A model generated the notes under the pieces. It was given only the letters and a program-made list of their open reading frames with translations. It did not search any database and was not told where the DNA came from. Made by a program: the position numbers and the translations under genes. 64,000 nucleotides of DNA, from NCBI RefSeq assembly GCF_900114835.1, contig NZ_FOUJ01000002.1, positions 390,374-454,373 on the forward strand, written 5' to 3'. Each line of letters begins with the position of its first letter. Positions within the stretch are counted from its first letter, which is position 1. Origin of the DNA: Methanolobus profundi. GTDB taxonomy: Archaea; Halobacteriota; Methanosarcinia; Methanosarcinales; Methanosarcinaceae. Shown one piece after another: positions 47,050 through 64,000 of the stretch.

Positions 47050-47796
47050 TCATTCAGAGAATACTGCAATATTGCTATCATATCCTGTTCTTGAATTTGT
47101 TTCCGGATAGTATCTCTTGAACTTTCCGTGTCGTTCTGTGCGAATGACGTTCTCTTCGTCCAGCCTGTTAACATGCCAGTGAATGGTACTTTTGTCAACA
47201 CCAAGCTTTGAAGACAGGTCCTTACCTGTAACTCCCGGTTCCTCAAAGATGGTCTCAAGAACGTTCTTACGTGTGTCGTTCTTCATATTGATATCAAGGA
47301 ATATGTTCCTGTGATCCTTTGACAGGTCATATCTGAAATATCTGGTGTATCTTCCATTCCTCAAAGGAGATACCATGTTAGCTAATTCCAGTTTTCCCAC
47401 ATGGTACCTGAATGTACCTCTTTTCATATTCAGAGCCTCAAGAACATCGCCCTCCGAACATCCCGGGTTTTCAGAAACATAAGAGAGGATCTTCTGCCTG
47501 TTATCATCCCCTCCTTTGCTGAGATGTATCTTTCCCAGCAGAAGAGGGAGGAACTTTACAAGGCTCAAGGACCAGAAAGAAAAGAGAGCTCCTAATGTTA
47601 GCATTTTGAAGTACAAAGGCAGTTCCCAGAATGTAAGATTGGAATCACACCCATCACTATTGATAAGCTCTTCAGGAATATCCAGGTCTTCTGAATAGGG
47701 AACTATCACATACTCAGCACTAGCCGTAAAGCATAAGCATAAAAGTATAAGCAAGGTGCATACTGCTTTCAGTATATTGTTTGTACTTCGTGCCAA
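47050..47796 (-). CDS. Membrane-anchored protein with two winged-helix domains
   Basis: The 248-residue protein has a signal or membrane helix (KAVCTLLILLCLCFTASA), a short outer loop and a second membrane helix (YFKMLTLGALFSFWSLSLVK). Two winged helices follow: SYVSENPGCSEGDVLEALNM / GTFRYHVGKLELANM and ETIFEEPGVTGKDLSSKLGV / STIHWHVNRLDEENV. The DNA-binding part faces the cytoplasm, so it looks like a one-component sensor-regulator, a type expanded in Methanosarcina relatives. It is convergent with the MetV-like gene and faces away from the secretion region, which it could regulate. Confidence 0.85.
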   Translation of the reverse strand: MARSTNNILKAVCTLLILLCLCFTASAEYVIVPYSEDLDIPEELINSDGCDSNLTFWELPLYFKMLTLGALFSFWSLSLVKFLPLLLGKIHLSKGGDDNRQKILSYVSENPGCSEGDVLEALNMKRGTFRYHVGKLELANMVSPLRNGRYTRYFRYDLSKDHRNIFLDINMKNDTRKNVLETIFEEPGVTGKDLSSKLGVDKSTIHWHVNRLDEENVIRTERHGKFKRYYPETNSRTGYDSNIAVFSE

Positions 47797-48096
47797 GTAT
47801 TCGTGACCCCCCTGAACACCGGATAGATATCAATTGATATTTCATCCAGACATGTATAAACGTACTACATTTAGACTAGTCTATAGATTGATGATTCTAA
47901 ATATTGTATTTATGAGTTATGGCCAATGTTCCAACTGAAAGATCGTGGCTACGCCCTAAAATATTAATATAAAACACTAAAATATCACAAATGTCTACAA
48001 CCGGCATCATACGACACTATTAATTAATAAGATGAAAGTACCAGTATTATTTTTATAACAATTATTATGATAATATAAGTACACAGTTAAATCAAA
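47797..48096. other. AT-rich gap between the winged-helix gene and the first secretion operon
   Basis: No coding sequence is supported. TATA-rich runs occur, but I cannot assign them beyond the divergent promoters of the flanking genes. Confidence 0.4.
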
Positions 48097-48114
48097 GGCC
48101 ATAATACTTAAATA
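48097..48114 (+). promoter_or_regulatory. Promoter with GGCCATAAT element and TATA box, copy 1
   Basis: GGCCATAAT (48097-48105) precedes TTAAATA (48108-48114) with an 11-nt start-to-start offset. The same pair at the same offset occurs at 55114, 59647 and (ATAAATA) 63203, with looser forms at 62411 and 63333. The leader RNA begins 42 nt after the TATA start, as in copy 2. Confidence 0.7.
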
Positions 48115-48149
48115 GTTATCAAAATAATTTTATGATGACGCATTGAAAT

Positions 48150-48292
48150 AATGTGGAGTGGGGTCCAAACTAAACTTGCAGAGTCGGCTTGAACCCCGAA
48201 ACGCCCTAAGGCAAGGTTATAGTTGGCTTTGATAGTGTTTAAGGTTTGCGTGATCTTGCCTCAGGAGTAATTCGAAATGAGGTAAGAACAAA
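48150..48292 (+). ncRNA. Structured leader RNA, copy 1 (riboswitch-like)
   Basis: Bases 48150-48261 match 55167-55278 without gaps at 102 of 112 positions by hand count; the first 42 are identical. Helices: GGGGT/ACCCC (48160/48193), GGCAAGGTT/GATCTTGCC (48210/48252) and CTTTG/TAAGG (48227/48240). CTTGCCTCA (48255-48263) can alternatively pair with TGAGGTAAG (48278-48286), which includes the ribosome binding site of the gene at 48293. CTTGC at 48175 is also complementary to GGCAAG. These exclusive pairings suggest control of translation. I do not recognise a known class. Confidence 0.7.
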
Positions 48293-48706
48293 ATGAAAAC
48301 TAGCATAATTGCAAAGATAGGAATTTCGATGTTAGTAATGTTGATAGCCGTTGGAACAGCATCTGCATCAGGAGGGGGATCGTATGCGACCGCAGAAGAA
48401 ATAGAGGTTGCAGACGGAGATTTTGAAATGATTCGAGGTACTTACAGTGCAGATGACTGGTATGTTTTTGAGGAAGTTGGCAATGGTGATACAATTTATG
48501 TTGACATACAAGAATCATTTACAGATGCAGGTGGTTTCTTGGACTTGCATGACGACGGTCAGGGAGATATAGAGATACATCTGCCTAATTCTAATGATGA
48601 CCAAGAAACAAGTGTTACATCAGACCCACTGCCTCGTATTTATGTTGAAGCAGGAACACAGTTTTCTTATAAATACTTGGTTGCAAGGAATAGTCCGCTA
48701 TTCTAA
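48293..48706 (+). CDS. Secreted protein with pre-peptidase C-terminal-like domain
   Basis: The 137-residue precursor has a clear signal peptide (ISMLVMLIAVGTASAS, cleavage near residue 26). The mature beta-rich domain (DFEMIRGTYSADDWYVFEEV, GDTIYVDIQESFTDAGGFLD) resembles pre-peptidase C-terminal or related surface domains. It follows the structured leader, whose alternative helix covers its ribosome binding site, so its translation is probably regulated. It is 86 bp upstream of the beta-propeller gene and may head the first exporter operon. Role unknown. Confidence 0.7.
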   Translation: MKTSIIAKIGISMLVMLIAVGTASASGGGSYATAEEIEVADGDFEMIRGTYSADDWYVFEEVGNGDTIYVDIQESFTDAGGFLDLHDDGQGDIEIHLPNSNDDQETSVTSDPLPRIYVEAGTQFSYKYLVARNSPLF

Positions 48707-54551: not shown

Positions 54552-55113
54552 TCCGATTCTGTTCTTTTCATCTTTATTGCGTGATGCTTTTCCCATTAAC
54601 AGCGTATGAATTTATCGATTGAAATCATGATAAAACAGATAGTACAACTCACCCATATGAATTCGAGTTTAAGAGGAGATCTCAAACAGTAAGTATTCCA
54701 TCTGAACTTTTATTATGCACTTTTCTGGAAGGAATATCTCTTTCCAGCTTAAAGAGTCGCATGAGTTTCAGAACTTACAATAAAGCAAAGGTATATAATC
54801 AAAAAATAATACATACTATTTTCAAAGAGTTTCTTAACCTGAATAACAATCTATGGAATTCTTTCCATCACATAATTTACAAATACATTATAATAAACTT
54901 CTTTTTGAAAGAGGTAAATATGCGATATATAGATTATGGTCAATCATTCCAACTAATTTTTAAATACTACGTCACGAAACACACTCTGTTATTTTACACA
55001 GAGATTCAAAGTGAGAAACGTAATCTATGGGCCTAATTATGAAATAAACAAATTAGGTATGTATTAAATATCTACTCATAAATTATATTTTCTACATACT
55101 CCGTTTTAACGAT
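54552..55113. other. Gap with a weak open frame between exporter and metalloprotease units
   Basis: A plus-strand frame is open from about 54650 to 55036. Its first part (FKRRSQTVSIPSELLLCTFL) looks protein-like and its latter part (IIHTIFKEFLNLNNNLWNSF) does not. There is no start codon or ribosome binding site for the better part. It may be a degraded transposase or other gene; nothing firm is seen. Confidence 0.3.
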
Positions 55114-55131
55114 GGCCACAATTGTTAAATA
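55114..55131 (+). promoter_or_regulatory. Promoter with GGCCACAAT element and TATA box, copy 2
   Basis: GGCCACAAT (55114-55122) and TTAAATA (55125-55131) keep the 11-nt offset of copy 1, and the leader RNA again begins 42 nt after the TATA start. Confidence 0.7.
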
Positions 55132-55166: not shown

Positions 55167-55305
55167 AATGTGGAGTGGGGTCCAAACTAAACTTGCAGAG
55201 TCGGCTTGTACCCCGGAACGCCCTAAGGCAAGGTTCTGGTTGACTTTGGTAATGCTCAAAGTTTGCGTGATCTTGCCTTTTGGGACTAAACAAAAGGTGA
55301 AATCA
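55167..55305 (+). ncRNA. Structured leader RNA, copy 2 (riboswitch-like)
   Basis: Counterpart of 48150-48292. The same helices form: GGGGT/ACCCC (55177/55210), GGCAAGGTT/GATCTTGCC (55227/55269) and CTTTG/CAAAG (55244/55257), the last with base changes that keep pairing. After TTGCC the sequence differs from copy 1, yet GCCTTTTG (55275-55282) can pair with CAAAAGGT (55291-55298), again covering the ribosome binding site AAAGGTGA of the gene at 55306. Retained pairing with changed sequence supports a real switch. Confidence 0.7.
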
Positions 55306-56679
55306 ATGAGAAATAAACAAACTATAGCTATTTGCTTTGTAATAGCAATCATTTGTTCGATGGCTGCAAGTGCTGAAGCAGTAGAAGCGTCAAATGATAA
55401 TTTACAGGCATCTGTAGAATCTGATACACTGAATGAACACTTCGAAAAAATTAGTGTTGATAAAAGTGATAGACTTAATTTACGCAGCTTTGATTCAATA
55501 AAGAAATATGATTTTATAACCGTTGACCCTATAGCTTTTCAAAAGGATGCGAATTCAGGTGAAATTACGATAGAGATAGCAGGGAAAGATTTCAAATTAG
55601 AGTTAGAACCTGCTATATATATTAATGAAGGAGATACACTCGCCATTCATAATGAAACCGGCCTATATGAAATTGAAATGCCAGAAATATATACCTACAA
55701 TGGAAAAGTTGTCGGCTATCCTGAAAGCAAGACTCGTTTTACCGTGTCGGACACAGGACTTGTTGGTAGGGTGGAAATCGGTGACATAAAATACATAATT
55801 GAACGAGCAGGGTATATCGAAAGAGATGGAAAAAAAACAGCAGTTAATGTTGTGTACAGTAATGTAGATGTATCCCCTAGTGGAACTCTTCCTAGTTCAG
55901 ATGACCTAGTTTATGATAGTACTGAAACAAGTGATACTTTTACAAGTGGTGAATTATCCACGCAAGCTATTGCAAGTAGCATGATATCTACACAAAGTAC
56001 TAAATCAGCTACTACTGTAGATTTATTAGCAATATATGATGGAGAGTTTAGAGATATCTTTGGAAACTATGATGACTGTTGCAATGAAATATATGACATG
56101 ATGGAGACTGTGAATGAAGTATATTCTTCATCTGATATTGGTGTTAACTTGGATATTACACACGTGGTTCGCGATACAGGGTTGGATGAGACAAATGGGA
56201 CTGCCCTATTAAACGAATTCAGGGACAGGGATGATTTTGTAAAAGAATATTACAACTGTGACATAGCTTTCTTATACACTGGAAAAGAAATTGACGATAA
56301 TGTAATAGGAAAAGCGTATAAATATGATACTACACCTAATAAAGCATATGCATTAGCACAGATGACACCTGGTAACTCAACATATACTGCAGATTTAGAT
56401 GATAGATCTATGGTAGTAGCACATGAAATCGGTCATGTATTCAACGCACATCATGAAGACTATAATGAAACTCCTATTTATGCGAAGGCCACCCAATGGA
56501 CCTACTTGCAGGTATGGGATAGATATTCTATTATGTACAGTCAATTCCAAGGAATTGGTTATTTAGGAGGGATGCAATTCGAATTTTCCACCAATACATC
56601 TACTGGCAATGGTGATGCAGACCACGATAATGCAAGATCAATACGTGAGGTAAAAAACATAGTAGCAGCATTTGAGTAG
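55306..56679 (+). CDS. Secreted HExxH zinc metalloprotease (M12-like)
   Basis: The 457-residue precursor has a signal peptide (TIAICFVIAIICSMAASAEA), a propeptide-like region to about 230 and a metalloprotease domain. The latter has VDLLAIYDGEFRDIFGNYDD, the zinc site VAHEIGHVFNAHHED (His373, Glu374, His377, His383) and a Met-turn-like YSIMYSQFQG. This follows the HExxHxxGxxH type of reprolysin-like enzymes, with Ala in place of Gly in the motif. ATG 55306 follows AAAGGTGA; the open frame upstream runs through the leader RNA and is not coding. It would digest proteins outside the cell or process exported substrates. Confidence 0.85.
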   Translation: MRNKQTIAICFVIAIICSMAASAEAVEASNDNLQASVESDTLNEHFEKISVDKSDRLNLRSFDSIKKYDFITVDPIAFQKDANSGEITIEIAGKDFKLELEPAIYINEGDTLAIHNETGLYEIEMPEIYTYNGKVVGYPESKTRFTVSDTGLVGRVEIGDIKYIIERAGYIERDGKKTAVNVVYSNVDVSPSGTLPSSDDLVYDSTETSDTFTSGELSTQAIASSMISTQSTKSATTVDLLAIYDGEFRDIFGNYDDCCNEIYDMMETVNEVYSSSDIGVNLDITHVVRDTGLDETNGTALLNEFRDRDDFVKEYYNCDIAFLYTGKEIDDNVIGKAYKYDTTPNKAYALAQMTPGNSTYTADLDDRSMVVAHEIGHVFNAHHEDYNETPIYAKATQWTYLQVWDRYSIMYSQFQGIGYLGGMQFEFSTNTSTGNGDADHDNARSIREVKNIVAAFE

Positions 56680-56778: not shown

Positions 56779-57171
56779 ATGATATCAAGTAATAAAAAAC
56801 TTATAATCGGATTAATTTTGCTGATTATGGCGGGAACAATCGTTTATGCTATTTACTCCGACCATGAATACGTAATAGAAAATCATGTCAGTTTTTCTTT
56901 GCATAACGACGACGAAATCAAACATGAGGTCTTAGTCGAAATCTTTGATTCAACCAACACGTCCGTATTCAAAGAAACATATATAGTGGCTCCTGGTGAT
57001 GAAATATATCCTGCTCGACTCAAAAAGGAAGAGGGTGCATATAGAATAGAAGTAACTTTGGATAATAATACTAATAATACATATATTGGAGACCTTTATT
57101 CAGAGTATCATGATTACATACACATTACAGGCGTTTCTGATCAGCCTTTTATGGTTGAAACTGCAGAATAA
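56779..57171 (+). CDS. Small membrane-anchored beta-domain protein
   Basis: The 130-residue protein has one N-terminal membrane helix (LIIGLILLIMAGTIVYAIY). A beta-sandwich-like outer domain follows (VSFSLHNDDEIKHEVLVEIF, FKETYIVAPGDEIYPARLKK). No enzyme motif. It lies between the metalloprotease and the PepSY-type pair, all in the same direction, but the hairpin upstream suggests a separate transcript. Function unknown. Confidence 0.6.
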   Translation: MISSNKKLIIGLILLIMAGTIVYAIYSDHEYVIENHVSFSLHNDDEIKHEVLVEIFDSTNTSVFKETYIVAPGDEIYPARLKKEEGAYRIEVTLDNNTNNTYIGDLYSEYHDYIHITGVSDQPFMVETAE

Positions 57172-59590: not shown

Positions 59591-59646
59591 TTTTTCGCTT
59601 ATTTTTGCATCAAAAATTGAACTATAGTTTTTTTAGTTTGAACTCT

Positions 59647-59664
59647 GGCCATAATAGTTAAATA
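59647..59664 (+). promoter_or_regulatory. Promoter with GGCCATAAT element and TATA box, copy 3
   Basis: GGCCATAAT (59647-59655) and TTAAATA (59658-59664), again at an 11-nt offset. It probably drives the second exporter module. Confidence 0.65.
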
Positions 59665-59699
59665 AAAAACTAAACGACTACTTCATCATAATATGTATA

Positions 59700-59822
59700 T
59701 TTAATTCATATAAAAGTCGGAAGTTATGCTAACTCAAGAGTACATAAGACAAAGTTATAGTTAGCAGTGCTTACAAAGCAAAAGGTGAGATCAATGAAAA
59801 GCACTACATAAACTTTGAAATT
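59700..59822 (+). pseudogene. Decayed third copy of the leader RNA and gene start
   Basis: AAGTCGGAAG (59714), TAAGACAAAGTTATAGTTAG (59745 on) and GCAAAAGGTGAGATCAATGA (59778 on) match parts of the leaders at 48150 and 55167, in order but with gaps. The CTTGCC segment that would pair with GGCAAG is lost. The former start ATG 59794 now reads only four codons before TAA. The promoter upstream remains intact. Confidence 0.55.
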
Positions 59823-63116: not shown

Positions 63117-63202
63117 ACCGATGCAATGTCTATTCGGTGACGTACAAAGAGTAGGGATGATATTTGCAGACCTTTTTGAAGGAAGAACATAGTTAGATCG
63201 GT

Positions 63203-63220
63203 GGCCATAATGAATAAATA
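63203..63220 (+). promoter_or_regulatory. Promoter with GGCCATAAT element and ATAAATA box, copy 4
   Basis: GGCCATAAT (63203-63211) and ATAAATA (63214-63220) keep the 11-nt offset of copies 1-3. No coding gene follows directly; the hairpin RNA at 63240 is the likely transcript. Confidence 0.6.
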
Positions 63221-63239
63221 AGGTCTTTCATATTTTTAC

Positions 63240-63323
63240 GATGTCGAGTGGGGACAACGGAGAGTGGGATCCTATGAGGGACCATAGTATTATGATACCC
63301 ACTCTCCAGCCAACCTAACAGTT
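63240..63323 (+). ncRNA. Candidate small structured RNA with strong hairpin
   Basis: GATGTCGAGTGGGG (63240 on) resembles the 5' end of the leaders (AATGTGGAGTGGGG). After this, GGAGAGTGGG (63259-63268) and CCCACTCTCC (63298-63307) form a perfect 10-bp stem enclosing 29 nt. A smaller hairpin CCAAC/GTTGG (63310-63324) follows, so the unit could be a small RNA with its own terminator, or part of the leader of the gene at 63429. Confidence 0.5.
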
Positions 63324-63332
63324 GGAACTTTT

Positions 63333-63351
63333 GGCCATAAATCCTTAATAA
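63333..63351 (+). promoter_or_regulatory. Promoter element GGCCATAAAT with TTAATAA
   Basis: It has the same order of elements as the others but a 12-nt offset, and lies about 80 nt before the start at 63429. The sequence CCTTAATAA...TTG is shared with the element at 62411. Confidence 0.45.
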
Positions 63352-63428
63352 GTTGATAAATATTTAGTAATTAACCCCGCATAAATATAGAGAGTCTTGT
63401 GGGAACCCAATGTACCAACAGCAAGGTC

Positions 63429-64000
63429 ATGAGCATCCCCCTTTGTGATCAGAGTGAACATGGCCTTGCACCCCTATCCAATTTCCAGACCAAATACATG
63501 CAGATGAATATGGAAAGAGCAGATGATACAGAGAGCGGACCCGATATCAAACAAAAGATACATGTTGATGTTTCCTTTGATACTGCCATGCTGAAAGTAA
63601 TGGTAGCCATGATAGTGGCAACCCTGATACTGTATGCCCTGTGCTTCCGCTCACCTGAATGCAAGATACTTATCTATCTGACCTGGTATGCAGGTTTTAT
63701 TATCCTCCTGCTGAAAGAGCGTACCATAGTAGAGGTCACACCTTACATGATAATCATTCACAGACCCCTTTTCCATCCTCTCATAATAGATAAGCAGAGC
63801 ATAAATGATATGCAGATCAGAAAGAACACGAACTATCCTTTCAGATGGCTACTGTACTCACTTTCATTGATATTGACCGGGTACCTAGCTTACAATTCCT
63901 TCCATGATATTCTGCAAGGAATACAGGGAAGAACTCTCACAGGAGAGATACTTGTTATCCTGTCAGGATCCATATTCGTTTTTCTGATAATAGTCGTCTT
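63429..64000 (+). CDS. Membrane protein, 3' end outside window
   Basis: ATG 63429 follows AAGGT (63423-63427). The frame is open to the window end, about 190 codons. A polar N-terminus (NMERADDTESGPDIKQKIHV) precedes two close membrane helices (LKVMVAMIVATLILYALCF, ILIYLTWYAGFIILLL). A short domain follows (TIVEVTPYMIIIHRPLFHPL, SINDMQIRKNTNYPFR), then two more helices (WLLYSLSLILTGYLAY, EILVILSGSIFVFLIIVV). This resembles PH-like membrane proteins seen repeatedly in Methanosarcina relatives; function unknown. Confidence 0.65.
   Translation, partial: MSIPLCDQSEHGLAPLSNFQTKYMQMNMERADDTESGPDIKQKIHVDVSFDTAMLKVMVAMIVATLILYALCFRSPECKILIYLTWYAGFIILLLKERTIVEVTPYMIIIHRPLFHPLIIDKQSINDMQIRKNTNYPFRWLLYSLSLILTGYLAYNSFHDILQGIQGRTLTGEILVILSGSIFVFLIIVV

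Follow-up and report, generated by a model that had tools for sequence, protein, structure and literature searches.

The window, that is, the whole stretch of 64,000 nucleotides from Methanolobus profundi that was analyzed, contains two copies of a structured 5' leader, each with a promoter in front and a protein-coding gene behind, and a regulator gene is divergent from the first of them (Table 1). The two copies are 91% identical outside the part downstream of the sequence CTTGCCT, and the stretch 3' of this sequence differs between them. The putative terminal hairpin P1 can be recognized by eye in most relatives of the leader and is missing from some. The product of the copy 1 gene (137 aa) has no Pfam match.

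Table 1. Positions of the two leader copies, their genes and the neighboring regulator gene in the window.
Feature	Position	Strand	Remarks
Membrane-anchored winged-HTH (wHTH) regulator, divergent from copy 1	47050..47796	-	PF13412, PF24266; same promoter box upstream, at 47907-47925 (-)
Promoter, copy 1	48096..48114	+	Conserved box GGCCATAAT and TATA-like TTAAATA
P1, 5' terminal hairpin CGCATT/AATGTG	48139..48155	+	Putative, from sequence
P2 hairpin	48159..48198	+	Arms 48159-48168 and 48189-48198; loop with CTTGC at 48175-48179
Long stem 5' strand CCTAAGGCAAG, copy 1	48205..48215	+	Inner part picked by RNAalifold; N-N' pair 0/3000 stratified shuffles
P4 hairpin GCTTT/AAGGT	48226..48245	+	Arms 48226-48230 and 48241-48245
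Strand CTTGCCTCAGG, copy 1, common to both helices	48255..48265	+	3' strand of long stem and 5' arm of RBS hairpin (48255-48263)
TGAGGTAAG, copy 1: ribosome binding site (RBS) and 3' arm of RBS hairpin	48278..48286	+	10-bp helix; co-variation z=-7.7
Copy 1 gene	48293..48706	+	137 aa, signal-peptide-like start
Promoter, copy 2	55113..55131	+	TGGCCACAATTGTTAAATA
Leader core (P2, long stem, P4), copy 2	55176..55279	+	R1 match, 110.8 bits
Long stem 5' strand CCTAAGGCAAG, copy 2	55222..55232	+	From sequence
Strand CTTGCCTTTTGGG, copy 2, common to both helices	55272..55284	+	From sequence
CAAAAGGT, copy 2: RBS and 3' arm of RBS hairpin	55291..55298	+	From pairing
Copy 2 gene: exported M12B (reprolysin-like) metalloprotease	55306..56679	+	PF13688, E=4e-18

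The conserved fold of the leader

The conserved fold, referred to below as the open fold, consists of P2 and a long stem of the form CCCNRAGGCA../..TGCCTYN'GG that encloses P4. Run unguided on 46 members of the family, RNAalifold proposed P2, P4 and the section that closes the long stem, and in this prediction 15 pairs show changes on both sides. A translational riboswitch is expected to have a conserved, structured domain in the 5' leader, and such a domain is present here; with the extended long stem included, 17 of the 26 pairs of the fold are changed on both sides, which was equaled in 0 of 500 shuffles. When the fold is slid along the sequences, the paired share drops from 90% to 25-59%.

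All 10 pairs of P2 are changed on both sides, and its co-variation (z=-10.6) was as strong in none of 300 within-genus swaps. In P4, 96% of the cells are paired and three of the five pairs are changed on both sides; the letters of P4 and of the internal loop are conserved. The long stem reaches outward, so that the N of GCCCNRAGGCA pairs with the N' of TGCCTYN'GG, and across members this pair is G-C, A-T or T-A (0/3000 genus-stratified shuffles). In copy 1 the two strands of the stem, CCTAAGGCAAG and CTTGCCTCAGG, pair with one A.C mismatch. The energy of the long stem is -16.94 kcal/mol against -15.50 kcal/mol for genus-stratified swaps (z=-6.7, 0/300), a comparison of 102 de-duplicated homologues in which strands were swapped only inside genera and which controls for genus and not for all relatedness.

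The initial annotation had the conserved domain closed by TTGCC and GGCAAG. In each copy GGCAAG (48210-48215 and 55227-55232) does pair with CTTGCC, but it is only part of the strand, which in full is CCTAAGGCAAG. The same annotation proposed a three-way competition with the CTTGC at 48175, which we abandon, as this sequence lies in the variable P2 loop and is not conserved.

Two other elements were considered and set aside. A P3 hairpin GCC/GGC, which overlaps the long stem, does not qualify as part of the main fold, its strands being invariant, never changed on both sides and no better at pairing with each other than when swapped; we keep it as no more than a candidate element of the closed fold described below. 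A pseudoknot ACGC/GCGT, noticed by eye in copy 1, does not hold up on visual inspection of leaders L018, L019, L020 and L021.

The RBS hairpin and the proposed choice between two folds

The CTTGCCT arm is one and the same strand in both the long stem and the RBS hairpin. In copy 1, CTTGCCTCA pairs with TGAGGTAAG with one G-U, and with the flanking T/A the helix reaches 10 bp; the full ten-pair helix, G-U counted, is TCTTGCCTCA/TGAGGTAAGA. In copy 2, GCCTTTTG (55275-55282) pairs with CAAAAGGT, and the helix with its flanks is again 10 bp (TTGCCTTTTG/CAAAAGGTGA, G-U counted). These are the pairings that the initial annotation had placed at 48255-48286 and 55275/55291, and they are found there. 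Its observation that the two downstream parts differ and yet both form an RBS helix is borne out, as is its claim that one strand pairs either with GGCAAG or with the RBS, which holds in both copies by sequence and by the co-variation of both helices.

In the same 102 homologues, and with the same control for genus, the arm/RBS duplex has an energy of -8.85 kcal/mol against -7.62 kcal/mol for the genus-stratified swaps (z=-7.7, 0/300). Furthermore, the run of arm/Shine-Dalgarno (SD) pairing past CCT/AGG is 1.60 against 1.17 (1/2000). Examples of co-varying arm/RBS pairs are CTCCTAAG/CTTAGGAG, GCCTTTG/CAAAGGT and CCTCG/CGAGG. The far set taken by itself gives no significant co-variation for the RBS hairpin (p=0.09), because the arms hardly vary there. 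A three-way identity of N with the base upstream of the SD was also considered and is not significant.

The counter-case named by the initial annotation, leaders in which the RBS cannot pair with the TTGCC strand, is realized in part, in one clade of a sister family (f5). The arm in this clade is GCGCCTGA, the long stem is kept, and since only 3 bp are possible with the RBS, these members do not have the RBS hairpin. With the exception of this clade, the leaders have the second feature expected of a translational riboswitch, a helix that covers the RBS and excludes the conserved fold.

In the two window copies the two folds are 0.4 and 0.5 kcal/mol apart (1.8 and -0.8 kcal/mol in a shorter context). 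Family-wide, the open fold is favored by a median of 4.2 kcal/mol, and by thermodynamic folding the closing helix has a probability of 0.80 and most members are predicted to be open. The predicted openness of the SD is 0.61 in the leaders versus 0.37 in control genes. Because the open fold is favored and the SD more open, the ground state of the leader is probably open according to these energy models, and the closed fold would need a trigger. The idea that evolution keeps the two folds level in energy is not supported, as the difference is no closer to zero than with the downstream parts swapped (p=0.41). The initial annotation had described the site as a translational expression platform; of this description, the mutually exclusive, co-varying helices are present family-wide, but most members are predicted to be open, and the nearly equal energies of the window copies are atypical.

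These energies also bear on two other explanations. The long stem might be constitutive, keeping the RBS open or stabilizing the mRNA, with the RBS hairpin as a minor by-product of CCTC lying near GAGG. The lead of the open fold (median 4 kcal/mol), the more open SD and the clade without the RBS hairpin would all agree with such a stem. However, the arm/RBS duplex is stronger than expected within genera and the variable loop-side bases co-vary, so the hairpin is probably not a mere by-product of the conserved CCTC and GAGG, and we regard this explanation as unlikely. Alternatively, one of the two folds might melt with temperature, as in an RNA thermometer, which would fit with the leader-dependent cold regulation that is discussed for Methanolobus psychrophilus in the passages concerned of PMC5378194. 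However, the conserved P2, long stem and P4 exceed what a thermometer needs, and in the energy model at 37 C the open fold is usually the stabler one, which is the opposite of a thermometer opened by heat; we consider a thermometer very improbable.

The reading that fits best is that the leader is a new cis-regulatory RNA class, normally open and closed by strand exchange. In the open fold, P2 would stand beside the long irregular stem that encloses P4, the stem would hold CTTGCCT, and the SD would be free. In the closed fold the CTTGCCT strand would leave the long stem and pair with the SD, and the GGC released in this way could pair with the GCC upstream of it to make a small hairpin. Translation would then be set by a signal that stabilizes or destabilizes the long-stem domain. 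We infer that cells do form the closed fold, that it is repressive and that either a ligand or a protein brings it about; a metabolite, an ion and a protein are all candidates for the trigger. We think it likely that the site is the expression-platform end of a structured 5' leader, not catalogued before, through which methanogenic archaea and their relatives control the translation of an exported-protein regulon.

Distribution and relation to known leaders

A covariance model of the leader core alone, with the RBS hairpin left out (R1), finds the leader in 71 of 112 Methanosarcinaceae genomes, with about 29 copies at most in one genome and five in the genome of M. profundi itself. Matches are also present in other families of the same order. 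In other orders of the phylum they are weaker (E mostly 1e-8 to 1e-2); many of these keep the order of the elements and have a start codon preceded by a GGAGG-type site, with a few loci where the stretch is not read in register. Model matches on the opposite strand were taken as artefacts of the palindromic P2.

No Rfam 15 family reaches its gathering threshold in the window or at 12 other leader loci, the c-di-GMP-I and c-di-GMP-II aptamer models included, and at E up to 10 the leader has chance matches only (sroB, snoR18, snoR27 and bantam). No account of such a leader was found in the open-licence literature. Judged by sequence comparison, the structured leader family is new, and it is established as two co-varying, mutually exclusive helices before exported-protein genes. 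On the same evidence the leader is probably a translation switch of an undescribed class that can expose or hide the ribosome start site.

The c-di-GMP riboswitches (GEMM-I and c-di-GMP-II) occur in many copies per genome and control extracellular proteins, among them a secreted protease of Clostridioides difficile. The leaders resemble them in both respects; however, the architecture differs and the leader is without an Rfam match. Likewise, the leaders share with translational riboswitches that sequester the Shine-Dalgarno sequence (such as preQ1, SAM-II and TPP) the mutually exclusive helices, one of them over the RBS, but differ from these in having no match in sequence or structure to any Rfam class. 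Closer to the present organism, an RBS-burying hairpin has been predicted in the Hsp20 mRNA of M. psychrophilus, along with alternative 5' UTRs with a masked RBS (PMC5378194). The masked RBS is a common trait, whereas the cases treated in those passages rest on alternative transcription starts of single genes, and no conserved leader family is described there.

The exported proteins, their promoter box and a candidate regulator

The genes behind the leaders have one property in common: a strong signal-peptide-like hydrophobic N-terminus is present in 97 of 105 leader ORFs, whereas among the remaining ORFs at these loci the count is 218 of 487 (p=3e-21). By Pfam, 12 of 92 leader-gene proteins contain Peptidase_C39_2, others are M12B, M10 or S8 peptidases, and most are without a family. 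One exported protein of the set has a halocin C8-like domain in an NCBIfam scan, which hints at antagonistic peptides.

The box GATGATNTGGNCATAAA, with a TATA-like stretch behind it, is present within 4 mismatches at 63 of 143 leaders versus 8 of 140 at a far control position. It lies mostly 68-72 nt upstream of P2 and 47 nt upstream in other leaders, and this spacing would place the transcription start at P1 or, in leaders that lack P1, at P2. The signal peptides are strikingly alike across unrelated leader proteins (..FGIGALLAAMLLVSMAFVPAVSA). Promoter, leader and signal peptide look as if they had spread together as one module.

Relatives of the wHTH protein are encoded less than about 1 kb from leaders in five genomes (G000, G001, G105, G119 and G139; positions compared by eye), which makes this protein a candidate transcription factor. 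The promoter box at a fixed spacing and the divergent wHTH gene point to one regulon, and the arrangement suggests two layers of control, the box and the RNA.

More tentatively, the leaders of methanogens and their relatives could make up a new class of riboswitch, a reading that we hold to be quite possible: one fold, common to as many as about 29 leaders in a genome, would respond to one intracellular signal and set the translation of exported proteins and proteases, in tandem with the wHTH protein acting on the common promoter box. The leader could instead be the site of an RNA-binding protein that stabilizes one fold across the regulon. The conserved letters of P4 and the internal loop would be as much in keeping with a protein site as with an aptamer, and one exported-protein regulon with a common box would suit a dedicated regulator; however, no candidate protein was found and the linked wHTH protein looks DNA-binding, so that we consider a protein site rather unlikely. 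To our knowledge, archaea have so far yielded few natural leaders that resemble riboswitches. A family with this many copies and with links to secretion and proteolysis would bring a regulon of methanogens to light, perhaps together with a nutrient signal or second messenger, and the question of what it senses can be put to a direct test in tractable Methanosarcina species.

In the window, at 59646-59800, the box TGGCCATAATAGTTAAATA is followed by an apparent decayed leader (CAAAGTTATAGTTAGC..CAAAAGGTGAGATCAATG), and the frame behind it terminates immediately. Two further box matches (63202 and 63332) lie within 63202-63480, and a possible stem GCAAGGTCATG/CATGGCCTTGC at about 63421-63470, unmatched by R1, is perhaps a diverged relative of the leader. 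Leaders L005 (C16:133470 of the M. profundi genome) and L025 are truncated: the promoter and P1 remain, with at least the beginning of P2, and then run into other sequence; L025 precedes a relative of the window protein at 56779. Finally, L130 (C7:599937 of the M. profundi genome) is an intact leader before a signal-peptide start whose frame soon closes, and since a longer ORF lies behind it in a different frame, the gene looks frameshifted.
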